Below, one piece after another: positions 36,245-50,228 of a stretch of 64,000 nt of DNA. Positions within the stretch are counted from its first letter, which is position 1. Each line of letters opens with the position of its first letter. Position numbers and translations under genes: made by a program. The DNA lies in the NCBI GenBank assembly GCA_001029295.1, contig LDXJ01000060.1, forward strand, positions 62,127-126,126. Direction: 5' to 3'. Source of the DNA: Peptococcaceae bacterium CEB3 (lineage in GTDB: Bacteria; Bacillota; Desulfitobacteriia; Desulfitobacteriales; Desulfitobacteriaceae). The notes beneath the pieces were generated by a model. It saw nothing but the letters and a program-made list of their open reading frames with translations. It had not been told where the DNA came from and ran no database searches.

Positions 36245-36268
36245 GGTCAGAAGGGGAATGACGGAGGT
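36171..36268 (+). repeat. Degenerate AGGTCGGAAG repeats spanning the hyuA end
   Basis: Short AGTCGGAGGTCGGAAGTC-like units run from 36171. A 25-nt block AGGTCGGAAGGGGAATGACG... at 36196 recurs at 36244 with three changes. The repeats code the hyuA tail and run past its stop. Confidence 0.65.
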
Positions 36269-36354
36269 TGGATAGCATAAGTCACAGAGAGAGAAAGGAG
36301 GCAGAAGGGCCGCGCCCCCCAGACCGGGGTCAGAAGTACGCGGGCCCGACGATC

Positions 36355-38934
36355 ATGAACATCAATGTAAACGGTAAGAGCTATGCTGTGGAAGAAGACA
36401 TGAATCTGATGGAGTTTTTGCGGGATCATTTGCACTTGACTTCGCTTAAAAACGGCTGTGGCGAGGGGGTGTGCGGCGCCTGCACGATTTTGGTCGACGG
36501 AAAACCCATGCGGGCCTGCCGTCTGACGACGGGCAAGGTCGAGGGGAAAGAGCTGATGACGACGGACGGACTGTCCGAGAGGGAGAAAGAGGTCTTCAGC
36601 TGGGCCTTTGCGGAAGTCGGGGCGGTCCAGTGCGGCTTTTGCACTCCCGGTATGGTGATGAGTGCCAAAGCCCTTTTGGACAGGAACCCGGACCCTGCAC
36701 CGAAAGACATTAAAGAGGGGATACGAGCAAATTTGTGCCGTTGCACCGGATATGTCAAAATAGAGCAGGGGATTCTCTTGGCCGGCCAGGTTCTGCGCGG
36801 GGAGGTGGCATTGGGGATGGCTCCGGTTAAAAGCGGGGTCGGCGCCAACTTCCATCGGGTCGACGCCCGGGCTAAAACCCTGGGTGAGGCGGAATATGTC
36901 GATGATATGTACCGGGAAGGGATGCTCTACGGGGCGGTGCTGCGTTCACCGGCCCCCAGGGTTGTGCTGAAGTCGCTCGCTGCGGAGGCGGCCAGGGCCT
37001 ATCCGGGCGTGGAAGCGGTTTTGACGGCCGACGACATTCCGGGCGAGCCTTACCACGGGCATATCATTCACGATTGGCCGACTTTGGTCGCTGTGGGAGA
37101 AGAGACCAGGTATGTCGGCGATGCTCTGGCTCTGGTGGCGGCCCGTACGAAAAAGGCGGCTCGGGAGGCTCTAAAGCTTATTCAGTTCGAATATGATGAA
37201 CTGGAACCCGTGCTCAGCCCGGCGGAGGCACTGAAGGAAGGGACGGCCGCCATTCATCCCAAGGGAAACCTCTTGAGCACCACGCGGGTGGAACGGGGCG
37301 ACGCGCGGGAGGCCTTGGCCCGGTCGGCCTATGTGGTCACTCAGCATTATTCGACACCGCCTACGGAGCATGCTTTCATGGAACCGGAGAGCGCCCTGGC
37401 GGAGCCGGACCATGACGGCGGAGTGACGGTGTACGTGGCAGACCAGGGGGTTTATGATGATCTGCATGGCATTTGTTCGATCCTGGGGCTTCCCCCCGAA
37501 AAAGTACGGATTGTCAGTAAATTTGTCGGAGGGGGCTTCGGCGGAAAAGAAGATCTGAGCGTGCAGCACCACGCGGCCTTGCTGGCCGTTAAGACGGGCA
37601 AACCGGTGAAACTGACCCTCAGCCGACAGGAAAGCATCATGGTTCATCCCAAACGGCACCCTATGGAGCTGGACCTGACAACCGGCTGTGACGCGGACGG
37701 AAAACTCACGGCGCTGGTTGCTCGGATCACGGCCGATACCGGGGCCTATGCTTCCCTTGGCACGGCGGTACTGCAGCGAGCCTGCACGCACATCGGCGGA
37801 CCTTACGAGATACCCAATGTGGACATCACGGGGTACTGTGTTTACACGAACAATCCTCCGGCGGGGGCTTTCCGCGGTTTCGGGGTACCTCAATCCGCTT
37901 TCGCCTGTGAGGGCAACATGGATCTGCTGGCGGAAAGAGTGGGTGTCTCCGCCTGGGAGATGCGCTGGCGCAACGCATTGGAGGCGGGTAAGGAGAACCC
38001 GACAGGCCAGATCTGCGATGAGGGTACCGCTATCAAAGAAACCCTCTTGGCGGTCCGGGAAGCGTATGAATCAAGTCCTTATGCCGGAATTGCCTGTGCC
38101 CTTAAAAATACCGGGATCGGAGTCGGGTTGCCGGACGTGGGACGCATTAAGCTCAAAGTGGCAAAAGGCAAGGTCTATGGCTACACGAGCGCGGCCTGTA
38201 TCGGTCAAGGCCTGGCTACAATCGTGACCCAGATCATCAGCGAAGCGACCGGCCTGGCGGCGGACCTCATTGAGGTCAACCCGCCGGACACCTTTCTTAC
38301 CCCGAATGCCGGGACGACGACCGCTTCGCGCCAGACGTTGTTCACGGGGGAAGCGACCCGCCAGGCTGCCCTCAAATTGCAGCAAGATATGAATCACAAA
38401 TCTCTGGCCGAATTGGAGGGTGCCGTTTATGAAGGCGAGTATTCCGGAGTAACCGACGTTTTGAATGCGGATAAACCCCATCCTGTCAATCATGTCGCTT
38501 ACAGCTATGCGACTGATGTCGCGATTTTGGATGAGACCGGCCGCGTGGCCAAAGTGGTGGCCGCGCACGATGTCGGCCGGGCCATCAATCCCAAAGCTGT
38601 GGAAGGGCAAGTGGAGGGTGGCATTGCTATGGGACTGGGTTTTGCTTTGAGGGAGGAGTTTCCTCTGCGGAAAGGAGTTCCGACGGCCAAGTTTGCTACT
38701 CTTGGGTTGTTTAGATCCACGGATATGCCGGAGACCGAAGTCTTGATTATCGAGCAGAATCCCTCGCCCTTGGCTTACGGGGCGAAAGGAGTCGGGGAGA
38801 TCGCCTCTATTCCGGTGGCTCCGGCGGTGGCCCTCGCCTATCGTCGTTTTGACGGCAAATTCAGAACCAGCCTGCCTTTAGCGGATACACCGTATACCAG
38901 AGGCCAGAGGTCAGAGACCGGGGGCCAGAAGTAA
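36355..38934 (+). CDS. Fused selenium-dependent-type xanthine dehydrogenase (Fe-S + Mo domains)
   Basis: About 859 aa. Residues 1-155 are a [2Fe-2S] domain (CGEGVCGACTI; CGFCTPG; CRCTGY) fused to a full molybdopterin-binding part from about residue 160. GGGFGGKED, GAFRGFGVPQ and GAKGVGEIAS (catalytic Glu) are present. This fusion and its N-terminus match the family annotated as selenium-dependent xanthine dehydrogenase, where selenium is a labile Mo ligand and not selenocysteine; I see that from family resemblance only. No FAD subunit is adjacent. ATG 36355 lacks a strong ribosome site, but upstream in-frame starts give a non-conserved, repeat-like N-terminus. A second repeat-like tail (RGQRSETGGQK) ends it. 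Confidence 0.87.
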   Translation: MNINVNGKSYAVEEDMNLMEFLRDHLHLTSLKNGCGEGVCGACTILVDGKPMRACRLTTGKVEGKELMTTDGLSEREKEVFSWAFAEVGAVQCGFCTPGMVMSAKALLDRNPDPAPKDIKEGIRANLCRCTGYVKIEQGILLAGQVLRGEVALGMAPVKSGVGANFHRVDARAKTLGEAEYVDDMYREGMLYGAVLRSPAPRVVLKSLAAEAARAYPGVEAVLTADDIPGEPYHGHIIHDWPTLVAVGEETRYVGDALALVAARTKKAAREALKLIQFEYDELEPVLSPAEALKEGTAAIHPKGNLLSTTRVERGDAREALARSAYVVTQHYSTPPTEHAFMEPESALAEPDHDGGVTVYVADQGVYDDLHGICSILGLPPEKVRIVSKFVGGGFGGKEDLSVQHHAALLAVKTGKPVKLTLSRQESIMVHPKRHPMELDLTTGCDADGKLTALVARITADTGAYASLGTAVLQRACTHIGGPYEIPNVDITGYCVYTNNPPAGAFRGFGVPQSAFACEGNMDLLAERVGVSAWEMRWRNALEAGKENPTGQICDEGTAIKETLLAVREAYESSPYAGIACALKNTGIGVGLPDVGRIKLKVAKGKVYGYTSAACIGQGLATIVTQIISEATGLAADLIEVNPPDTFLTPNAGTTTASRQTLFTGEATRQAALKLQQDMNHKSLAELEGAVYEGEYSGVTDVLNADKPHPVNHVAYSYATDVAILDETGRVAKVVAAHDVGRAINPKAVEGQVEGGIAMGLGFALREEFPLRKGVPTAKFATLGLFRSTDMPETEVLIIEQNPSPLAYGAKGVGEIASIPVAPAVALAYRRFDGKFRTSLPLADTPYTRGQRSETGGQK

Positions 38935-39162
38935 CGGTACTGGGTGCAGGGTATAGGGGTTTGCGGGTTTAGGTGCAGCAGATGCGGAGGAAAAGGGCGG
39001 CAGGCGGACGAGGCGGCCTGTACCCCAGGCGGTCAGCCTCTATGAGTGTGGGGCTTTGAGGGGTTTGCCAAGAGGCCTGGCGGGCGTGGTCAGAATGTGG
39101 TCAGTGTAAGGTGTGCGTGACTTTGAGTCAAAGAGGAAGTTTTCGAAACAGGGGAAGAGACG

Positions 39163-39978
39163 ATGATCATGAATGAGTATTATTCCACTCTGCTCCGTTA
39201 TCTCGAAGAGAAGAGACCATCTGTGGCGGCTGTCATCGTCCGGGGCCCCGCCCAATATCCCGCCGGCAGCCGCTTCATTTTTGACGGAGACGGACAAAGG
39301 ATGGCCGGGGAGCAGGCTTGGCCGGCTTTGGCCGACTTGGCTGAGAAGGTTCGGGAAGTTTTGCGGTCAAGGGTTCCCCGGCTTTACCGGTGGGAAGTGG
39401 CCGGGGAGCCGCTGGAAGTTTTCCTGGATCCGCTCATTCCGGCCCAGCGCCTGCTGATCTTGGGCGGGGGGCATATTGCGGTTCCCCTCGCGCAGGTGGG
39501 TCAGATGATCGGTTTTGAAGTTACGGTCGTCGATGATCGGCCGAGCTTTGCTTCGATGACCCGCTTTCCCGCGGCCGCTAGGGTTATTTGTGACGAGTTT
39601 GGCAAGGCGATCAAGGACTACGCCCTTGACGGCGGTACCTTTGTGGTGATTGTGACCCGCGGACACAGGCACGACAAAGACTGTCTCGCTGAGGTTCTTC
39701 GGAATGAGGCGCCTCCGGCTTACACAGGGATGATTGGGAGCCGCCGCAAAGTCAAAGCTGTGCTCGCTGAACTGAGAGAGGAGGGCATTTCCCCCGCCCT
39801 TCTGGACAGTGTGCAGGCTCCCATCGGCTTGGATATAGGGGGGCAAACGCCTGAGGAAATAGCGGTCAGCATCATGGCGGAGATCATTATGGTTAAATAC
39901 TATGGCTACAGCACGGGACTAAAAGTTCAGTCAGGGGGTGTGCGGGGTGGATCAGCAGGTAACGCGGGCCATTCTTAA
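39163..39978 (+). CDS. XdhC/CoxI family molybdenum-hydroxylase maturation protein
   Basis: A 271-aa XdhC-type protein, a chaperone that handles the sulfurated (or selenium-loaded) molybdenum cofactor for xanthine dehydrogenases. The Rossmann domain is clear from LILGGGHIAVPLAQVG (about residue 103) through TRGHRHDKDCL, YTGMIGSRRK and APIGLDIGGQTPEEIAVSI. ATG 39163 follows AGGGGAAGAG. It follows the selenium-type hydroxylase gene and overlaps the next gene, a second CoxI-type protein, which suggests a two-part maturation factor. Confidence 0.87.
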   Translation: MIMNEYYSTLLRYLEEKRPSVAAVIVRGPAQYPAGSRFIFDGDGQRMAGEQAWPALADLAEKVREVLRSRVPRLYRWEVAGEPLEVFLDPLIPAQRLLILGGGHIAVPLAQVGQMIGFEVTVVDDRPSFASMTRFPAAARVICDEFGKAIKDYALDGGTFVVIVTRGHRHDKDCLAEVLRNEAPPAYTGMIGSRRKVKAVLAELREEGISPALLDSVQAPIGLDIGGQTPEEIAVSIMAEIIMVKYYGYSTGLKVQSGGVRGGSAGNAGHS

Positions 39979-40279
39979 GCTGGAAGCCGGTGAGGACGCG
40001 GCTTTGGTCACGGTGATCTCCAGCCGCGGTTCCACGCCGCGCAAGGCGGGAGCTCAGGTTCTGTTTTACAGAGACGGGCGGACGGCCGGGACGATTGGGG
40101 GAGGATGCGGGGAAGCGGAAGCCAGGCGTACGGCCTGGGAAGTTCTGAGAACGCGGCGGCCGCGGATTGCCCGGATCGAACTGACGCACGAGCTGGCGGA
40201 AGAAGACGGCATGGTTTGCGGTGGGGTCATGGAAGTGTTTGTTGAGACGGTATCCGGGCTCGAGCGAGTGAAAGACTGA
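39947..40279 (+). CDS. CoxI-domain protein (XdhC family, N-terminal domain only)
   Basis: About 110 aa covering only the CoxI domain of XdhC-like proteins: SSRGSTPRKAGAQ, TIGGGCGEAEARRTAW with its conserved Cys, and GMVCGGVMEVFVE with the second conserved Cys. GTG 39947 is chosen as the start; GTG 39938 is possible. It overlaps the preceding XdhC gene by 32 bp. The two together carry the domains usually found in one XdhC protein, but in reverse gene order. Confidence 0.8.
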   Translation: MDQQVTRAILKLEAGEDAALVTVISSRGSTPRKAGAQVLFYRDGRTAGTIGGGCGEAEARRTAWEVLRTRRPRIARIELTHELAEEDGMVCGGVMEVFVETVSGLERVKD

Positions 40280-40640: not shown

Positions 40641-40674
40641 GCCCAATAGGAAACTAAATAGGGTATTGTTTTAA

Positions 40675-40739
40675 CTCATATATCTTTGGAGATTGGTCCA
40701 AAAGTTTCTACCGGATGACCGGAATCGTCCGACTATGAG
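40675..40739 (+). promoter_or_regulatory. Purine riboswitch aptamer (guanine/hypoxanthine class)
   Basis: P1 pairs CTCAT (40675-40679) with ATGAG (40735-40739). P2 is TTGGA/TCCAA (40686, 40697), with loop GATTGG. The joining strand AAGTTTCTACC is identical to known purine riboswitches. P3 is GGATG/CGTCC, with CC in its loop to pair with GG of loop 2. The ligand-discriminating base is C (40733 in GACTATG), which pairs with guanine, hypoxanthine or xanthine; adenine types have U. It heads the NdhFSLM-like hydroxylase operon. Confidence 0.93.
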
Positions 40740-40782
40740 GGGTGTATTTCCCTTCGTGTCGGCGGTGGTCATCCGGTTTTTT
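40711..40782 (+). terminator. Riboswitch expression platform: terminator overlapping the aptamer
   Basis: CCGGATGACC (40711-40720) pairs perfectly with GGTCATCCGG (40767-40776), followed by six T. Inner CCGAC/GTCGG and GAGGGG/CCCTTC extend the hairpin. The 5' arm is the aptamer's own P3 strand, so ligand binding should block the terminator and allow transcription. Confidence 0.85.
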
Positions 40783-40849: not shown

Positions 40850-41695
40850 ATGTATTATGTTCGTCCGGAAACGGTTGCCGAAGTTTTGGAGGCCGGGGAA
40901 AAACCGGGTATGCTTTATCTGGCCGGGGGTACGGACCTGATCCTGAAGCTGCGCCGCCAAGAGGTTCAAGCGAGGGGTTTGGTTGATTTGCAGGCCGTCG
41001 CGGAATTGCGGCGGATCCGGGTGGAAGGCGACCGGCTGGAGATCGGGGCGATGGTCAGCTTTGCGGACTTACTGAATAACGATCAGGTGGCGACAGAGGC
41101 GCGCGCTCTCTGGTTGGCCTGCCGCAGTATGGGTGCGCCGCAGATCCGCAATCAGGCGACTTTGGGAGGAAATCTAGCCAATTGCTCGCCGGCGGCAGAC
41201 AGCCTCCCTGCCCTGTTGGTCTTGCAGGCCCAGGTTCGCTTGCTGAGCCACTCGGGTGAGACCCTTGTTCCGCTCGCCGAGCTTTTGGAGAGAACACCGC
41301 TTTGGCCGTCCGGAACTTTGCTGGCGGGATTTAGACTGCCTTTGACGGGCGGAGCGAGCGGCTTTGCCAAGCTCGGCAGGCGCCAAGCCTTGGCTATTGC
41401 CCGCTTAAGCGCGGCGGTCGCTCTTCGGGAGGAAAACGGGAGGGCGAGCGGAGTCCGGCTGGCTTTTGGGGCGGCCGGGAAGCGGGCCTTTCTCAGTGCG
41501 GATTTGGCAGAGAAACTGAATGGGTTGGTTTTGGACGGCGGCTTCACGGAGGTGGCCTGCCGGGAGGCCAGGAAAGTCATAAGCAGGGCTTTGGGCGAGA
41601 GAGCCTCCGCTCCCTACAAGAGAGAAGCGGTCGCCGGTGTGGTCAGGGAAGCATTGGCGTCTGTGGAGTTTATGAAATCCGGGGAAGGCGCGTAA
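40850..41695 (+). CDS. Molybdenum hydroxylase FAD subunit (NdhF/XdhB-like)
   Basis: A 281-aa CoxM/XdhB-type FAD subunit. FAD-binding blocks are LAGGTDLILKLRR (about residues 24-36) and ATLGGNLANCSPAADS (about 103-118). ATG 40850 follows GGAGGTGGG; an earlier in-frame start would read through the riboswitch leader. It is the first gene of a four-gene operon in the order FAD, Fe-S, large Mo, medium Mo, the order reported for nicotinate dehydrogenase of Eubacterium barkeri (ndhFSLM). The riboswitch suggests a purine substrate here. Confidence 0.88.
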   Translation: MYYVRPETVAEVLEAGEKPGMLYLAGGTDLILKLRRQEVQARGLVDLQAVAELRRIRVEGDRLEIGAMVSFADLLNNDQVATEARALWLACRSMGAPQIRNQATLGGNLANCSPAADSLPALLVLQAQVRLLSHSGETLVPLAELLERTPLWPSGTLLAGFRLPLTGGASGFAKLGRRQALAIARLSAAVALREENGRASGVRLAFGAAGKRAFLSADLAEKLNGLVLDGGFTEVACREARKVISRALGERASAPYKREAVAGVVREALASVEFMKSGEGA

Positions 41696-41720
41696 GCTGA
41701 CGGAAAGGGGGGAGCGGGAA

Positions 41721-42185
41721 GTGAAGATTGAACTCACGGTAAACGGGGTGGCGAGGATTCTTGAGGTGGAACCTGAGGAACGGCTGCTGGATGTCTTGCG
41801 CGAGCGCCTGCATTTGACAGGAACGAAGGAAGGCTGCGGTGAAGGGGAGTGCGGAGCCTGTACCGTGATCATGGACGGTAAAACCGTCAATTCCTGTATG
41901 GTCTTGGCGGCGCAGGCTGACGGACACGCGGTGACGACGATTGAAGGGCTGGGAAACCGGGGTTCTCTGCATCCGGTGCAGAAGGCCTTCTTGGAGGAAG
42001 GCGCGGTTCAATGCGGTTTCTGTACTCCCGGAATGGTTTTGTCGGCCAAAGCTTTGCTTGACCGCAGCCCGCATCCCGGCAAAGAGCAAATTGCGGTTGC
42101 CATGTCCGGGAACCTCTGCCGCTGCACCGGGTATGACAAGATCCTGAGGGCTGTGGAACGCGCGGCCGGGGAGGTGAAAGAATGA
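41721..42185 (+). CDS. Molybdenum hydroxylase [2Fe-2S] subunit (NdhS/XdhC-like)
   Basis: A 154-aa two-cluster ferredoxin-type subunit: CGEGECGACTV plus Cys in NSCMVLA, and CGFCTPG with CRCTGY. Normal length, with no repeat extension. GTG 41721 follows AAAGGGGGGAG. The end overlaps the next gene by 4 bp (ATGA), consistent with coupled translation of the complex. Confidence 0.9.
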   Translation: MKIELTVNGVARILEVEPEERLLDVLRERLHLTGTKEGCGEGECGACTVIMDGKTVNSCMVLAAQADGHAVTTIEGLGNRGSLHPVQKAFLEEGAVQCGFCTPGMVLSAKALLDRSPHPGKEQIAVAMSGNLCRCTGYDKILRAVERAAGEVKE

Positions 42186-43471
42186 ACGGTACGGTAGGCG
42201 GAACAGTTGGCGGGACAGTCGGCGGACGCGTGTTGCGGGAGGACGCCTGGGGGAAAGTTTTGGGTCAGGCTGCTTTTCCGGCGGATGTACGGCGGGAGGG
42301 GCAGATTTATGCAGTGGCCGTGCGCAGCCCGCATGCCCATGCCCGGATACGCGGGCTCAAGCTTGATGAGGCGCGGAAAGCGGAGGGAGTGGTTGCCGTC
42401 CTGACCTCAGCCGATGTCCCCCATAACGGACACGGCGTGCTTTACCGGGATCAACCGGTCCTGGTGCAAGACCACGTCCGGATGGCCGGAGATCCGGTGG
42501 TCTTGGTCGGGGCCGAAACGCTGGCCGAGGCCCGGACGGCGGCCGGGCTGGTGGAGGTCGATTACGAGGTTCTGCCCGGGCTGTTTGACCCGGAAGAAGC
42601 GATGAAGGAGGGGGTTCCGGCTCTTCATCCGGAGATCCACGGCAGCACCAATATCGTCTACCATCTTCCGGTTTGCAAGGGTAACGTGGCCAAAGGCTGG
42701 GCCGAGGCGGAGGTGACAGTGGAAAGGGACTATCAGACCCAGATGCTGGACCACGCTTTTCTGCAGCCGGAGGCTGTGCTCGCTTACGTGGATGAACGGG
42801 GGCACCTGGTCGTTGAGGTGGCTACCCAGTATGCCCATTATGACCGGGGGGAGATCGCCCACGCTCTGGGGTTAAAGTTCAATCAGGTGCGAGTCAAGAC
42901 CGTGAGTGTGGGGGGAGCTTTTGGGGGCCGGGAAGACATTTCTCTGCAAATCATGGCGGCTCTCATGGCTTGGCGCACCCTGCGTCCGGTGAAAATGGAA
43001 AATACGCGCGAGGAATCTTTCCATTCCCACAGCAAACGTCATCCCATGAGGATGCATTACAAGACGGGGGCGACCCGCGCCGGAAAATTGACAGTCCTGG
43101 AGGCCCGGATTGTCGGGGACGCCGGAGCCTATGCGTCCTGGAGCCCCAACATTCTGCGCAAGGCTGCCATTCACGCCACCGGTCCCTATGAGATTCCCAA
43201 TGTTCGGGTCGACGCTTATGCCGTGTTGACCAACAACCCTTATACGGGGGCGATGCGCGGCTTCGGAGCGGCTCAGCCTGTTTTGGCCTATGAAAGCCAA
43301 ATGGATTTATTAGCTCGTGAATTGGGGCTGAGTCCTATGGAACTGCGTCTGAGGAATATCTGCCGGGTGGGGAGTGAAACCGCGACAGGTCAGGTTCTGA
43401 CCGGCAGCGTGGGTATGGAAGAGTGTCTGAAAGCGGTGAAATCCTATTTAGGCGAGGTGAGTGCGCGATGA
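42182..43471 (+). CDS. Molybdenum hydroxylase large Mo subunit (NdhL-like, N-terminal half)
   Basis: A 429-aa protein corresponding to the first ~430 residues of a normal ~760-aa molybdopterin subunit: the small a/b domain (GKVLGQAAFPADVR) and first Mo-binding domain, with LDHAFLQPEAVLAY, GGAFGGREDIS and GAMRGFGAAQ (substrate Arg). The N-terminus has a short GTVGG repeat. It stops with TGA exactly where the next gene begins (ATGA). The size equals that of NdhL in the nicotinate dehydrogenase of E. barkeri. Confidence 0.87.
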   Translation: MNGTVGGTVGGTVGGRVLREDAWGKVLGQAAFPADVRREGQIYAVAVRSPHAHARIRGLKLDEARKAEGVVAVLTSADVPHNGHGVLYRDQPVLVQDHVRMAGDPVVLVGAETLAEARTAAGLVEVDYEVLPGLFDPEEAMKEGVPALHPEIHGSTNIVYHLPVCKGNVAKGWAEAEVTVERDYQTQMLDHAFLQPEAVLAYVDERGHLVVEVATQYAHYDRGEIAHALGLKFNQVRVKTVSVGGAFGGREDISLQIMAALMAWRTLRPVKMENTREESFHSHSKRHPMRMHYKTGATRAGKLTVLEARIVGDAGAYASWSPNILRKAAIHATGPYEIPNVRVDAYAVLTNNPYTGAMRGFGAAQPVLAYESQMDLLARELGLSPMELRLRNICRVGSETATGQVLTGSVGMEECLKAVKSYLGEVSAR

Positions 43472-44463
43472 AAAAAAGGGGTAGGGGGCTGGGTTGTGCC
43501 TGGTACGGGACAGGGTATGGGAATGGCTTTCCCGACGTGTCGAGCGCTTTTGTCGAGATTCATGACGACGGTTCGGTGAGTGTGCTTACAGGTGCGATCG
43601 ATGTGGGGCAGGGCAGCAGCACGATCTTTGCCCAGATTGCGGCTGAGGAACTGGGGATCGATCCGGAAGAGGTGACTGTGATCAGCGGTGATACGGATGT
43701 AACACCGGATTCCGGAACCTCGGCGGCCACCCGGCACACTTATAACACCGGAAACGCGGTGATCAAAGCGGTGGCTCAAGCCAAAGCCAGCCTCTTGACT
43801 TACGCAGCCCGGGCTTTGCATTGTACAACTGCCGACGGGATTGAACTTAAGGATCATAAGGTGCGCGTCAAAGGGGAACCCTCGCGTTCCTTGCCGTTAG
43901 CCGAATTAGTCAGCAAGGCCCGCTTGGAGGGTGAACGTTTCTTGGGTTCTGACAGCTATACCGCCCGCACAACCCGGGTCAATCCGGAAACAGGGCAAGG
44001 GGCTCCCTATTGGCCCTATGCCTTTGGCAGCCAGGTGGCCGAGGTCGAGGTGGATACCGAGACTGGGAACGTGCAAGTGCTTAGAGTGGCAGCCGCGCAT
44101 GATCTGGGCAAAGCGATCAATCCCCTGCAGGCGGAGGGACAAATTGCCGGAGGGATTGCCCAGGGAGTGGGGTTTGCTCTCCTGGAAGAAGTCCGGTTGA
44201 GTGAAGGCCGGATTAAGAATCCGACTTTTTCCCAATATCTGATTCCCACTGTTTTGGATATGCCCGAGATCCGTGCTATCCTTGTGGAGGAGCCGGAGGG
44301 GACCGGACCGTACGACGCCAAAGGATTGGGCGAACCCGCGATGCTGCCCACGATCGCGGCCATTGTCAACGCGATTGATGATGCCGTTGGGGTCAGGATT
44401 ACCTCCCTGCCGGCGACGCCGGAAAAAATACTGGCCGCTCTGGCTGAGCAAAGCAAGAAGTGA
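43468..44463 (+). CDS. Molybdenum hydroxylase medium Mo subunit (NdhM-like, C-terminal half)
   Basis: A 331-aa protein equal to the second Mo-binding domain of xanthine dehydrogenases: GAIDVGQGSSTIFAQIAAEEL, RVAAAHDLGKAINPLQAEGQ and AKGLGEPAMLP with the catalytic Glu. GAGGTGAG seven bases before ATG 43468 and the ATGA overlap support a genuine separate start and not a broken gene. Together with the previous gene it rebuilds a full Mo subunit. Confidence 0.87.
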   Translation: MKKRGRGLGCAWYGTGYGNGFPDVSSAFVEIHDDGSVSVLTGAIDVGQGSSTIFAQIAAEELGIDPEEVTVISGDTDVTPDSGTSAATRHTYNTGNAVIKAVAQAKASLLTYAARALHCTTADGIELKDHKVRVKGEPSRSLPLAELVSKARLEGERFLGSDSYTARTTRVNPETGQGAPYWPYAFGSQVAEVEVDTETGNVQVLRVAAAHDLGKAINPLQAEGQIAGGIAQGVGFALLEEVRLSEGRIKNPTFSQYLIPTVLDMPEIRAILVEEPEGTGPYDAKGLGEPAMLPTIAAIVNAIDDAVGVRITSLPATPEKILAALAEQSKK

Positions 44464-44871
44464 ACCGGCGGGGGCACGCAGATGGGAGGGAGGAAGGGGG
44501 CGTGGCCCGGACGTAACTTGGGGTCGCGGCGATCTGAGCGGGAACAGTTGGCGCCCCGATGCCAAAGGCTGAGGCCATTGGCATCGGGGGCGGGGCGAGG
44601 GGGGATGCAGAGAAAAGGCCATTTTCAGCATGTTGCTTCATTTAAACGGGCACCCATTTTATTCACTTGAACGTATCACCTTATTTAACGCTTCTTCGGG
44701 GTTTGGCAAAGCGGTCAAGTCCCGAAAGATTCAGGACTTCCCGAAAGTTTCCGGTAGAGGGCGATCCGCTAAGGGTTTTCGTGTCCGGGGTCATAGGCCA
44801 AGCGGTCCCGGTCGGCGAAAGGAAAATGAGGCGGCGTCCCGGGAAGTATGTCAAAAAAAGGAGGGCTAAAA
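44464..44871. other. 408-bp gap before the AzgA-type permease
   Basis: No supported gene. It contains the perfect hairpin at 44554-44589 and otherwise plain sequence; I found no convincing promoter for the permease. Confidence 0.4.
44554..44589. terminator. 12-bp perfect hairpin after the NdhFSLM-like operon
   Basis: CCCCGATGCCAA (44554-44565) pairs with TTGGCATCGGGG (44578-44589) around a 12-nt loop. There is no T run after it, so termination is plausible but not certain. Confidence 0.5.
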
Positions 44872-46209
44872 ATGTCGGTTAACCAAAGTTCTGGCGGTTT
44901 GCTGAACCGCATCTTTCACTTGGATGAACTCCATACCAATGTCAAGACAGAAGTCCTGGCAGGGGTGACGACTTTTGTCACCATGGCCTACATTCTCTTT
45001 GTCAATCCCAGTATTCTCAAAGCCGCCGGGATGCCGGTCGCGGCCACTTTTGCGGCGACCGCGATTTCCTCGGCTTTTGCCACTTTGATCATGGGCTTCT
45101 ACGCCAATTACCCTATTGCCATGGCTCCGGGCATGGGCCTTAACGCTTTCTTTACGTACTCCGTGGTCATCGGCATGCACCTTCCCTGGCAGACAGCTTT
45201 GGGTGCGGTTTTCATTTCCGGTTTGGTCTTCTTCATTCTTACTGTGACTAAAGTTCGGGAATGGATTATCGCCGGGGTGCCCGAGGTCCTGCGCTACTCG
45301 ATCGGAGTCGGGATTGGCCTCTTTATCGCTTTTATCGGATTGCAAAATGCCGGTATCATCGTGGCCAACAAAGACACGATTGTGGCTTTGAGCAATATGA
45401 AATCTCCTTCCGTACTGGTTGCGGCTATCGGCTTGATCATCACGGGCTGGTTCATGGCCAAGAGGATTAAAGGGGGACTTTTACTGGGTATGCTAATCAC
45501 GAGTGTCATCGCCATGATCTTCCGCGTGGCTCCGGCACCGACGGGAATCTCCAGTTTCATCGCTCCGACCAATCCTTTTGCCTCTGTGGCTCCCATCTTC
45601 ATGCATCTAAATATTGCGGGCGCTTTTGATTATGGCTTAATCTCCATTTTGTTCGCCTTTACTTTCGTGGACATGTTTGACAATATCGGTACTTTGCTGG
45701 GGGTGTCCCGCAAAGCGGGGCTGCTCGATGACCAGGGAAATCTCCCCCGGGCCGGGCGGGCTCTGATGGCGGACTCCATCGGCACCATGTTCGGGTCAAT
45801 CATGGGGACACCGACGGTCACGTCTTACATTGAGAGTACTTCCGGAGTGGCCGAAGGAGGCAAGAGCGGCTTGACGGCCGTGGTGGTGGCTATTCTCTTT
45901 ATCGTGGCCATCGTTTTCGCACCCTTGGTCGGTCTGGTCCCGTCCGTAGCCACCGCGCCGGTGCTCATTCTGGTGGGAACCCTGATGATGGGCGAAGTGG
46001 TCCACGTGCGCTTTGACGATTTCACGGAAGCGCTGCCTGCCTTCCTAACCATCATTATGATGCCCCTCACCTATTCCATCGCTCAAGGCTTGGCCTTTGG
46101 CTTTATGTCTTATACGATCATCAAGCTGGTTACCGGTCGGTACAAAGAAAACAACGCGGTCACTTACGTCTTGACGATTCTGTTTATTCTCCATTTTGTC
46201 CTGGGATAG
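44872..46209 (+). CDS. AzgA/PbuG-type purine permease (NCS2 family)
   Basis: A 445-aa transporter with about 12-14 membrane segments, of the AzgA-like branch that carries adenine, guanine and hypoxanthine. Family blocks VTTFVTMAYILFVNP, NYPIAMAPGMGLNAFF, FVDMFDNIGTLLGVS and GTPTVTSYIESTSGV are present. ATG 44872 follows AAGGAGGG. With the xanthine/urate-type permease at 19.7 kb it gives the cluster two different purine uptake routes. Confidence 0.92.
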   Translation: MSVNQSSGGLLNRIFHLDELHTNVKTEVLAGVTTFVTMAYILFVNPSILKAAGMPVAATFAATAISSAFATLIMGFYANYPIAMAPGMGLNAFFTYSVVIGMHLPWQTALGAVFISGLVFFILTVTKVREWIIAGVPEVLRYSIGVGIGLFIAFIGLQNAGIIVANKDTIVALSNMKSPSVLVAAIGLIITGWFMAKRIKGGLLLGMLITSVIAMIFRVAPAPTGISSFIAPTNPFASVAPIFMHLNIAGAFDYGLISILFAFTFVDMFDNIGTLLGVSRKAGLLDDQGNLPRAGRALMADSIGTMFGSIMGTPTVTSYIESTSGVAEGGKSGLTAVVVAILFIVAIVFAPLVGLVPSVATAPVLILVGTLMMGEVVHVRFDDFTEALPAFLTIIMMPLTYSIAQGLAFGFMSYTIIKLVTGRYKENNAVTYVLTILFILHFVLG

Positions 46210-46643: not shown

Positions 46644-47975
46644 ATGCGTATTCTCTTAAAGAACGGAACCATTGTCACCATGAACGCGCAACGGACAGTC
46701 TTGAAGGGGGATCTGCTGGTTGAAGGGACGACTATTGCGGCTTTGGGGCCGGCACTACGGGAGACGGCCGACCGAACCATCGATCTGAAAGGGGATTTGG
46801 TGATTCCGGGGCTTATCCAGACGCATGTTCACCTCTGCCAGGTGCTGTTCCGCGGTCAGGCGGACGATTTGGAACTCCTCGACTGGCTGAGAAATAAAAT
46901 TTGGCCTTTGGAAGCGGGGCATGACGCGGAGTCTCTCTATGATTCGGCTCGGCTGGGGTTGGGTGAACTGCTGTTGGGCGGCACGACCGCGATCGTCGAT
47001 ATGGAAACGGTGCACCATACCGAAGAGGCCTTCCGGGCTATCCTCGAAAGCGGGATGCGGGCTGTGTCCGGCAAGTGCATGATGGATTTGCCGGATCCGG
47101 ATATTCCCGCCGGGTTAAAGGAGTCGACGACTGCGTCTCTGCAAGAAAGCACAGACCTCTGGGAAAAATACCGCGGCAGCGGCGAGGGACGGCTGGAGGT
47201 GGCCTATACCCCGCGTTTTGTGGTTTCTTGCACAGACGAACTTCTCAAGGAAGTCTCGCGCCTGGCCGAGGCCAAACAGGCTCTCGTCCACACCCACGCT
47301 TCGGAAAACCGGGGCGAGATTGAACTGGTGGAGAAGACCCGCGGTGAACGCAACGTGGTCTTCCTGAACAAGTTGGGTTTGACCGGCCCTCGCTCTCTCT
47401 TGGCGCACTGTGTGTGGTTGAACGAAACGGAAAAGAAGATCCTGGTGGATACCGGAACTAAGATTGTCCATTGCCCGTCTTCCAATCTGAAGCTCGCGTC
47501 GGGGGTGGCTCCGGTGCCGGAACTCCTGGCGCGCGGAGCGGAGGTCTCCTTGGGAGCGGACGGAGCCCCATGCAACAATAACCTGGACGGGTTTAGGGAA
47601 ATGCGCCACGCGGCTCTGATCCAAAAGCCCCAGCACGGTCCCACCTCCATGCCGGCCGCGAAAGTGTTTGAACTGGCGACTCTGGGAGGAGCACGGGCGC
47701 TGGGCTGGGAGAAAGACCTGGGCAGCCTGGAACCGGGTAAGAAGGCGGATTTGGCGGTCGTCAGTCTGCAGGGGCTTCATACCTGGCCTCTGGAGGGGGT
47801 GGACGTCTATTCGCAACTTGTTTATCAAGCAACGTCGGCCGACGTGCGCCTGACCATGGTGGACGGGCGCATCCTTATGGAGGACAGGCGCCTGCTTAGT
47901 CTCGATGTGGACGATGTGAAGAGAAGCGCCACTGAAAGTTTGAAAAGAGTCTTAAAGCGGACAGGGTTGGCTTGA
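46644..47975 (+). CDS. TRZ/ATZ-type amidohydrolase, probable purine/nucleoside deaminase
   Basis: A 443-aa amidohydrolase close to the 5'-deoxyadenosine/S-adenosylhomocysteine deaminase and chlorohydrolase group, also related to guanine deaminases. Metal ligands are in QTHVHLCQVLFRG, VHTHASEN, LAHCVWLN and LGADGAPCNNN. The position between a purine permease and adenine deaminase suggests deamination of guanine or an adenosine derivative. The sequence does not separate these options. ATG 46644 follows AAGAAGGGA. Confidence 0.82.
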   Translation: MRILLKNGTIVTMNAQRTVLKGDLLVEGTTIAALGPALRETADRTIDLKGDLVIPGLIQTHVHLCQVLFRGQADDLELLDWLRNKIWPLEAGHDAESLYDSARLGLGELLLGGTTAIVDMETVHHTEEAFRAILESGMRAVSGKCMMDLPDPDIPAGLKESTTASLQESTDLWEKYRGSGEGRLEVAYTPRFVVSCTDELLKEVSRLAEAKQALVHTHASENRGEIELVEKTRGERNVVFLNKLGLTGPRSLLAHCVWLNETEKKILVDTGTKIVHCPSSNLKLASGVAPVPELLARGAEVSLGADGAPCNNNLDGFREMRHAALIQKPQHGPTSMPAAKVFELATLGGARALGWEKDLGSLEPGKKADLAVVSLQGLHTWPLEGVDVYSQLVYQATSADVRLTMVDGRILMEDRRLLSLDVDDVKRSATESLKRVLKRTGLA

Positions 47976-48206: not shown

Positions 48207-50228
48207 ATGATATCTTGGCGGGAAAAAATGAGGCAGGCCCGGGGTCTTGAACCACTCGATCTGGTTTTGCACCGCGCTCGTTTGGTTAACGTCCTGTCGG
48301 GGGAGATCTATGAGACGGACATCGGCATTCAAGACGGCTTTTTCGTCGGGACGGGGGAGTACCGTGAAGCTCGAGAGATTCGGGATCTGGCGGGTCGTTA
48401 CGTGGTCCCGGGCTTGATCGACGGGCATGTGCACATTGAGAGTTCTCACCTTTGCCCCGAAGAGTTTTGTGCTCTTCTCCTGGCGCACGGAGTGACGAGT
48501 GCCTTGGCAGACCCGCACGAGATTGCCAATGTGGCGGGACCGGCCGGGATCCGCTATATTTTGGAGTGCCTGGCCGGGTTACCTTTTAATGGGTTTGTGG
48601 CCCTGCCCTCCTGTGTGCCGGCCACCGAGCTGGAGACATCCGGGGCCCGCCTGACGGCCGAGAATCTGGCGGCCCTGATGGGGGATCCCCGGGTGATCGG
48701 CTTGGGAGAGGTGATGGACTATCCCGGAGTCCTGGAAGGAAAAGAAGAGTTGGTGCGCAAGCTTCTGTTGCCTTTGCGCTTGAGGGATGGACACGCGCCG
48801 GGGATCGGGGCTCAGGATCTTAATGCCTATTATTTGGCGGGAATCAGTACGGAGCATGAGTGCTCGACTCCCGGAGAGGCCACGGAGCGTTTGCGCAGAG
48901 GTTTTTTCTTAATGCTCAGGGAGGGGAGCGCGGCCCGGAATTTGCTTGATTTACTGCCGGCGGTCAATTCGGCCAATTCCAACCGCTGCCTCTTGGTTAC
49001 GGATGACCGCAATCCTCTGGATCTTTGGCGCGAGGGGAGTATCGACCATCTGATCCGCCTGGCGGTTAAGGCAGGGGTGGAGCCTGTCCAGGCGGTGCAG
49101 ATGGCGACGATTAATCCGGCGCGGGCTTTGGGGTTGGAGCATTTAGGCGCGATTGCTCCCGGGTTTCAGGCGGATTGTGTCATTCTCAACGATCTTGAAA
49201 GGTTTGTCATCGACGATGTTCTCTGGAGGGGGATCAGCCCCAAGAAAGAGCAAGGATCAGCTTCGAAGCTGGGGAAAGATGCTGCGGTAACAGTGGGGAA
49301 GGACGCTTCGGTAACAGTGGGGAAGAATGCTTCGGTAACGGTGGAGAAAGACGCTCCGCTTGCGGCGGAGAGGGGTGGTTCGACAGCTGGGGGGACGGAT
49401 TCTCGGATAGCCGCAGGGACAAACTCTGCCGCGGGGGTAGAGTTGTCGATAAGAAAGGAGTCCCGGGAAGACGTGAATTTCTCCGGAAACGGCAGACAGG
49501 GCACCGGAGAGAGTTTAAGGTATCAGAGCAAACCTTTGAGCGAAACGGTTCACCTGGGAAAGTGGAGCAAGGAGCGGCTGCAAATCCGCTGTCCACGGGA
49601 GCCGCGGGGAAGCGTGAAAGAGCCGGGGCAGAGGGGAGGCCGCCCCTGTGAGGAACGGGAAACGGTTCCGGTGCGGGTGATTGGGATTAAGCCTCGTTCC
49701 TTGGTGACGGATCAGCTGTGCCTGGATTTACCGGTTCGAGCCGGCCTGGTTCTGCCGGACGCGGGTCAGGATGTGGCTAAACTGGTCGTTCTGGAACGCC
49801 ACCGAGGGAGCGGACGCACCGGCCTGGGATTTGTGCGGGGGCTCGGACTCGGTCGGGGAGCGTTGGCTTCCACCGTGGCCCATGATTCGCACAACCTGGT
49901 GGCAGCCGGGATGAACGATGAGGACATGGAATTGGCAGTCCGCACTGTGGCGGCTTCACAGGGCGGCCTTTGTTTAACGGCCGGGGGCAGAGTCCTGGGT
50001 CATTTACCCCTCCCCTTGGCCGGTTTGATGAGTTGGGAGCCGGCTGATGAGGTCGTATCCATCCTGGCGGAGATGCACATTCAGGCTCGTCAACTGGGTA
50101 TGAGGGAGGGGGTCGATCCGTTTATGACTCTGGCCTTCCTTTCCTTGCCTGTAATTCCCCATCTCAAGCTCACGGACCGTGGCCTTGTTGACGGGGATAA
50201 ATTGTGTTTCGTTAACCTTTTTCTCTGA
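48207..50228 (+). CDS. ade: Adenine deaminase with a repetitive insertion
   Basis: A 673-aa adenine deaminase (adenine to hypoxanthine); relatives are usually about 570-600 aa. Metal and catalytic elements include DGHVHIESS (His74, His76), ADPHEIANV, GLGEVMD, DGHAPG and STEHE. The usual TDDRH motif reads TDDRN (Asn269). Residues about 347-430 are an extra low-complexity insertion (KDASVTVGKNASVTV...) coded by a 24-nt tandem repeat. The C-terminal part (VAHDSHNLVAAGMND) is normal. ATG 48207 follows GAAGGGATAG. Activity is likely but not assured. Confidence 0.87.
   Translation: MISWREKMRQARGLEPLDLVLHRARLVNVLSGEIYETDIGIQDGFFVGTGEYREAREIRDLAGRYVVPGLIDGHVHIESSHLCPEEFCALLLAHGVTSALADPHEIANVAGPAGIRYILECLAGLPFNGFVALPSCVPATELETSGARLTAENLAALMGDPRVIGLGEVMDYPGVLEGKEELVRKLLLPLRLRDGHAPGIGAQDLNAYYLAGISTEHECSTPGEATERLRRGFFLMLREGSAARNLLDLLPAVNSANSNRCLLVTDDRNPLDLWREGSIDHLIRLAVKAGVEPVQAVQMATINPARALGLEHLGAIAPGFQADCVILNDLERFVIDDVLWRGISPKKEQGSASKLGKDAAVTVGKDASVTVGKNASVTVEKDAPLAAERGGSTAGGTDSRIAAGTNSAAGVELSIRKESREDVNFSGNGRQGTGESLRYQSKPLSETVHLGKWSKERLQIRCPREPRGSVKEPGQRGGRPCEERETVPVRVIGIKPRSLVTDQLCLDLPVRAGLVLPDAGQDVAKLVVLERHRGSGRTGLGFVRGLGLGRGALASTVAHDSHNLVAAGMNDEDMELAVRTVAASQGGLCLTAGGRVLGHLPLPLAGLMSWEPADEVVSILAEMHIQARQLGMREGVDPFMTLAFLSLPVIPHLKLTDRGLVDGDKLCFVNLFL
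49271..49366 (+). repeat. 24-nt tandem repeat inside ade
   Basis: Four units begin at 49271, 49295, 49319 and 49343, each coding GKDAxVTV or a decayed form. The period keeps the frame. Confidence 0.85.

Follow-up and report, generated by a model that had tools for sequence, protein, structure and literature searches.

In the textbook view, guanine-I riboswitches repress the synthesis and uptake of purines. The locus studied here, in a 64-kb stretch of DNA from Peptococcaceae bacterium CEB3 (the window), carries a guanine-class aptamer ahead of genes for purine breakdown, which raises the question of whether this aptamer turns its operon off or on. An original prediction for the locus held that an oxo-purine would stabilize the aptamer, prevent an overlapping terminator and induce a catabolic hydroxylase.

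Aptamer class and expected ligands

An Infernal search with the Rfam purine model, as proposed in the original prediction, matched RF00167 at 40656-40755 across the full model (positions 1-102), with 68 bits as compared to a gathering score of 37. The full purine aptamer and the guanine-type C claimed at 40733 were thus both recovered (C40733 aligns to C74), and the coordinates first given for the element proved accurate to 1-2 nt. This was the only Rfam match in the 64-kb window; a permissive search of 30-52 kb gave no matches beyond the purine riboswitch, and no further RF00167 match was found in the genome (5.3 Mb, 64 contigs). As the fold energy of the aptamer alone was ordinary when compared to shuffled sequences (z = -1.05), its identity rests on the covariance model. 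The aptamer has the following parts:

40656-40755, + strand: purine riboswitch aptamer RF00167, guanine class (Rfam cmscan, E = 8.5e-10)
40675-40680, + strand: P1 5' strand CUCAUA, partner 40734-40739 (MFE fold, Rfam alignment)
40685-40702, + strand: P2 hairpin, strands 40685-40690 and 40697-40702, 6-nt L2 GAUUGG (Rfam alignment, MFE fold)
40704-40711, + strand: J2/3 GUUUCUAC, with the U47 equivalent at 40705 and the U51 equivalent at 40709 (Rfam alignment)
40712-40731, + strand: P3 hairpin CGGAUGA/UCGUCCG, strands 40712-40718 and 40725-40731, L3 CCGGAA (Rfam alignment, MFE fold)
40733, + strand: C74 equivalent, expected Watson-Crick partner of guanine, hypoxanthine or xanthine; pairs with G40758 in the terminator form (Rfam alignment, fold)

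The ligand-contacting bases in guanine-I structures are U22, U47, U51 and C74. This pocket is complete here (U22 at 40681, U47 at 40705, U51 at 40709 and C74 at 40733), A73 is present, and the junction lengths match the consensus, with no insertion in J2/3 or J3/1; the departures from consensus are a U for A at position 24, a C.A first P2 pair, and L2 and L3 loops that are each one base short. With all four contact bases in place and neither junction enlarged, the core reads as canonical guanine-I. Membership in guanine-II was rejected, as there is no J2-3 single-nucleotide or J3-1 insertion, though U51 is retained; xanthine-II was rejected because U40709 is kept (no U51G) and the junction insertions are absent, and the adenine class (pbuE type) because position 74 is C40733 and not U.

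Guanine-I aptamers bind guanine with nanomolar affinity and hypoxanthine and xanthine about 10-fold more weakly. Because the pocket is canonical guanine-I, these three purines are the expected ligands, and which of them matters in the cell can be predicted with moderate confidence. A preference shifted towards xanthine or hypoxanthine over guanine, such that the RNA would sense the substrates of the hydroxylase, is compatible with ON control and would suit an operon encoding a xanthine dehydrogenase-type enzyme, the xanthine sensing of xanthine-II variants near xdh genes (PMC9295807), the reported xanthine response of the C. difficile CD2704 riboswitch (PMC11477304), and the U at position 24 and the short L2 and L3; we consider it rather unlikely, as U22, U47, U51, A73 and C74 are all canonical guanine-I and neither U51G nor a J2/3 or J3/1 insertion is present.

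Genes around the aptamer

The following genes surround the element:

36268-38934, + strand: selenium-dependent xanthine dehydrogenase, upstream (1360 bits, over cut-off)
40850-41695, + strand: FAD-binding subunit, xdhB-like, at the head of the predicted target operon (144 bits to NCBIfam XdhB_XDHase, below cut-off)
41721-42185, + strand: 2Fe-2S subunit, PucE/XdhC-like (NCBIfam, below cut-off)
42182-43471, + strand: N-terminal half of the molybdopterin subunit, PucD-like (NCBIfam, below cut-off)
43468-44463, + strand: C-terminal half of the molybdopterin subunit, a separate ORF with an ATGA overlap (family match, below cut-off)
44848-46209, + strand: purine permease (PF00860 Xan_ur_permease)
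46644-47975, + strand: amidohydrolase/deaminase (best NCBIfam match 5'-deoxyadenosine deaminase; guanine deaminase models also match)
48207-50228, + strand: adenine deaminase (NCBIfam ade, 563 bits, over cut-off)

The predicted purine-hydroxylase operon is thus present downstream, as a xanthine dehydrogenase-type hydroxylase with a purine permease and deaminases. The ORFs of 40850-44463 are assigned to the xanthine dehydrogenase family and encode FAD, 2Fe-2S and molybdopterin subunits; as none of the four reaches the curated cut-off of any single xanthine dehydrogenase equivalog, the substrate can only be suggested from the family and from the neighbouring adenine deaminase and Xan_ur permease. 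The molybdopterin subunit (42182-44463) is split into two ORFs in 17 of the 19 Bacillota orthologs described below, while in the other two (L056, L060) the halves lie in one frame without a stop. Upstream, XdhC-type maturation proteins accompany the selenium-dependent xanthine dehydrogenase.

A generic scan showed no plus-strand promoter near the aptamer, and no convincing sigma-70 promoter was found upstream of it. When the regions upstream of 20 orthologs were searched for a consensus promoter, no match beat shuffles in nearly all of them, and the sole promoter-like signal was a loosely GAATA-like sequence 15-20 nt 5' of P1; we infer a promoter just upstream. Alternatively, the element may be an internal attenuator: transcription would run through it from the selenium-dependent xanthine dehydrogenase genes, and it would adjust the latter half of a single long transcript, a layout that is also compatible with ON control. 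The lack of a good promoter and the position of the upstream genes (36268-40279; same strand, same pathway) are consistent with this arrangement; we regard it as doubtful, given the upstream gap of about 380 nt.

Overlapping terminator and its conservation

The terminator is composed of three elements:

40710-40720, + strand: terminator 5' arm ACCGGAUGACC, comprising the end of J2/3, the P3 5' strand and the first two L3 bases (fold, ortholog comparison)
40735-40757, + strand: nucleating hairpin, AUGAGGGG (40735-40742) with CCCUUCGU (40750-40757) (folds, growing-transcript folding)
40767-40782, + strand: terminator 3' arm GGUCAUCCGGU (40767-40777) and U6 tract (40777-40782) (sequence, fold, ortholog comparison)

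The claim that the terminator 5' arm is the aptamer's own P3 strand held up: the outer stem consists of 11 uninterrupted pairs (40710-40720 with 40767-40777) and is followed by the U6 tract. The OFF platform usual for guanine-I, which does not strictly define the class, is therefore not the one seen here. An inner stem pairs CCGAC (40729-40733, C74 included) with GUCGG (40758-40762), and AUGAGGGG covers nearly the whole P1 3' strand and extends past it. In the fold of the full leader (-52.6 kcal/mol as compared to a shuffle mean of -32.2; z = -5.8, 0 of 200 dinucleotide shuffles), C74 and the P1 3' strand are buried in the terminator form. Because the terminator takes the P3 5' strand, C74 and the P1 3' strand, the aptamer and the terminator are mutually exclusive. 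The generic scan reported no terminator near the aptamer, since the hairpin is longer than the pattern used by the scan.

When folding of the growing transcript was modelled, the aptamer was predicted to be intact with RNA ends at 40740-40752, P1 was gone at 40755-40758 and P3 by 40764, and the terminator was complete by 40776. With the aptamer enforced in a constrained fold, the remaining downstream RNA made no terminator; the region 3' of P1 alone reached only -9.1 kcal/mol, in a non-terminator fold. As an enforced aptamer leaves no possible downstream terminator, ligand can, on this reading, only oppose termination. The aptamer-constrained fold was less stable than the terminator by about 22 kcal/mol, so that the terminator would win at equilibrium; control would thus have to be kinetic, and unfavourable kinetics could leave the switch permanently off.

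We propose, with a probability of roughly 0.84, that a guanine-I type aptamer here serves an ON riboswitch acting at the level of transcription. The aptamer would be the first structure to form in the nascent leader. When ligand is absent, the hairpin nucleated by 40735-40742 and 40750-40757 would invade P1, then J3/1 and P3, and this strand invasion would complete the U6 terminator and stop transcription ahead of the xdh operon. When guanine, hypoxanthine or xanthine is bound, the closed three-way junction would block strand exchange until the polymerase clears the U tract, so that the hydroxylase would be made, along with the permease and the deaminases if these are co-transcribed. The ON direction in the cell is a strong prediction of these models.

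Conservation was assessed by aligning the XdhB proteins of six loci in relatives and searching one-genome-per-species contigs with the alignment. This search found 26 loci (19 from Bacillota and seven more distant), and the closest named relative by the first gene was Acididesulfobacillus acetoxydans (86% identical). An aptamer lies upstream of xdhB in 19/19 Bacillota loci (107-335 nt from J2/3 to the start codon), a count that describes one protein clade and not all xanthine dehydrogenases, as most of the query proteins had been taken from loci first detected through their riboswitch; no aptamer was present upstream of xdhB in the seven more distant loci. The gene order FAD subunit, 2Fe-2S subunit, molybdopterin subunit and purine permease is also kept in all 19.

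In 20/20 sequences (the present one included), the U tract is preceded by bases that can pair with the P3 5' strand of the same leader, with a mean duplex energy of -14.1 as compared to about -4 to -8 for shuffles. The P3 strands form two clades (CGGAUGA/CGGAUAA and GAGGCAA/GAAGCAA/GAGGCGA/GAAGCGA), and cross-clade arms do not fit. With the 3' arms set in register by hand, 119 of 132 cells were paired among 12 distinct sequences, as compared to 28-51% when the arms were slid by 1-3 bases. Six consecutive pairs showed at least two standard pair types (e.g., G-C to A-U, C-G to U-A); the pairing of the P3 strand with the terminator is thus conserved with compensatory changes. In a Desulfosporosinus sister clade of ON switches (L031-L039, L053-L063, L065, L066), G54-C72 is flipped and position 73, otherwise a conserved part of the pocket, is U; these changes might alter the ligand preference.

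A vestigial or locked element, with a constitutive terminator and an aptamer that is not competent, would agree with the very high stability of the terminator; it is highly improbable, as aptamer core and terminator are both conserved with covariation across genera and adjacency to the gene is kept in 19/19. Least probable of all is a conventional OFF riboswitch, in which bound ligand would favor termination and keep the operon off. OFF control is the rule among guanine-I switches (PMC9295807, PMC11477304), and in the phylum sample described below many purine riboswitches have a terminator wholly 3' of the aptamer. At the present locus, however, the one stable terminator cannot form unless P3, J3/1 and P1 come apart, the weak fold of the post-P1 region is not terminator-shaped, no separate antiterminator was seen, and the P3-terminator pairing covaries.

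Related purine riboswitches in Bacillota

The closest known systems each share some features with the proposed ON switch. In pbuE, the terminator forms at the expense of P1 and P3, with a nucleating stem that invades P1, J3/1 and P3 and a ligand that gates the invasion (PMC7707468); a strand-exchange study of yxjA provides the matching OFF case (PMC9756952). Like this Bacillus subtilis adenine ON switch, the present RNA has a terminator built from P1, J3/1 and P3 sequences plus a U tract, and a nucleating stem and ligand-blocked exchange are predicted here. Unlike pbuE, which has U74, belongs to the adenine class and controls an efflux pump, it has C74 and a catabolic operon; the folding models suggest that it works like pbuE without belonging to the adenine class. 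Fold and pocket bases are shared with the known guanine-I members of RF00167 (xpt, yxjA and others), but these are OFF and have a downstream terminator, whereas the present RNA has an aptamer-overlapping terminator and precedes catabolic genes. With guanine-II the RNA shares C74, U51 and a predicted ON direction (PMC9295807); guanine-II differs in its junction insertions and phosphoribosyltransferase genes. Xanthine-II, the variant reported near xanthine dehydrogenase, is similar in its predicted ON direction, overlapping terminator and neighbouring genes (PMC9295807), but its U51G and J2-3 and J3-1 insertions are absent here. Both features, U51G and xanthine-II-like junction insertions, do occur in a purine aptamer of a Desulfosporosinus-type relative (L050:2001-2103), which lies upstream of a molybdopterin hydroxylase subunit and has a P3-complementary arm preceding a U tract. 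Xanthine-I (NMT1) also controls purine oxidation genes, but its fold is unrelated, and no Rfam match to NMT1 was found here. The premise that guanine-class switches usually turn genes off therefore applies to guanine-I, described as OFF, and to the four C. difficile guanine riboswitches, all OFF (PMC11477304), but not to the guanine-II, xanthine-II and guanosine variants, which are predicted ON (PMC9295807).

ON purine switches are thus already known (pbuE) or predicted (guanine-II, xanthine-II); the combination of a guanine-I core with a pbuE-like ON platform on xanthine dehydrogenase was not found in a literature search that covered main texts available without subscription. A conserved, covarying ON platform on this core would mean that one aptamer serves opposite regulatory signs, with pathway substrates as inducers. 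It would also assign regulation to anaerobic xanthine dehydrogenase operons and provide a directly testable set of natural guanine-ON switches, of use in studies of strand-exchange kinetics and as inducible parts.

RF00167 matches from an even draw of 91 Bacillota genomes were surveyed and their neighbourhoods read. Terminators were typed with a single-hairpin classifier settled after earlier results on the same sample: a first classifier, which let weak structures pass and overlooked terminators that begin in P3 3' or J3/1, and a second, which took multibranched folds, had been dropped. Terminators started in P3 or J3/1 at 7/9 xanthine dehydrogenase or deaminase sites as compared to 16/69 others (P = 0.002, Fisher's test), a P value that is approximate because of kinship within the sample and because the classifier was revised twice on the same data. 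The nine sites represent seven families, six of which have at least one aptamer-overlapping terminator; L174, with a terminator starting in P1 3', was left out of the seven sites. Guanine-I-like cores with a terminator starting in P3 or J3/1 precede an FAD subunit (L133) and a selenium-type xanthine dehydrogenase (L183), while L158 and L174, with altered junctions, look closer to guanine-II. Shortening of L2 and L3 was dropped as an ON-specific adaptation, as L133 has a normal L2. On balance, and only somewhat better than evenly, we favor the view that guanine-class aptamers were repeatedly rewired in Bacillota to induce purine catabolism (genes for xanthine dehydrogenase, deaminases and some BMP-family importers) through a terminator arm on the aptamer, related genomes running the same class ON for breakdown and OFF for synthesis, as judged by the downstream terminators.

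Seven Desulfosporosinus loci (L019, L020, L022, L026, L027, L029, L030) have high-scoring guanine aptamers with a long conserved leader resembling the guanine-PRPP tandem, ahead of a second FAD/2Fe-2S hydroxylase. These are an apparent exception to the ON rule; a PRPP aptamer in these leaders was not confirmed by Rfam. At L047:2235-2336, the U tract follows a long near-perfect inverted repeat and the P3 5' sequence is repeated as well, which leaves the regulatory direction of this leader ambiguous. A BLAST search of the leader of the present locus against plasmids gave no match. Several of the other aptamer-overlapping terminators in the survey lie ahead of BMP-family ABC importer lipoproteins (L165, L176, L187), which probably serve purine or nucleoside uptake. 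In two relatives, adenine-class (U74) aptamers lie directly 5' of an adenine deaminase gene (L040:12001-12097, L041:2001-2097).
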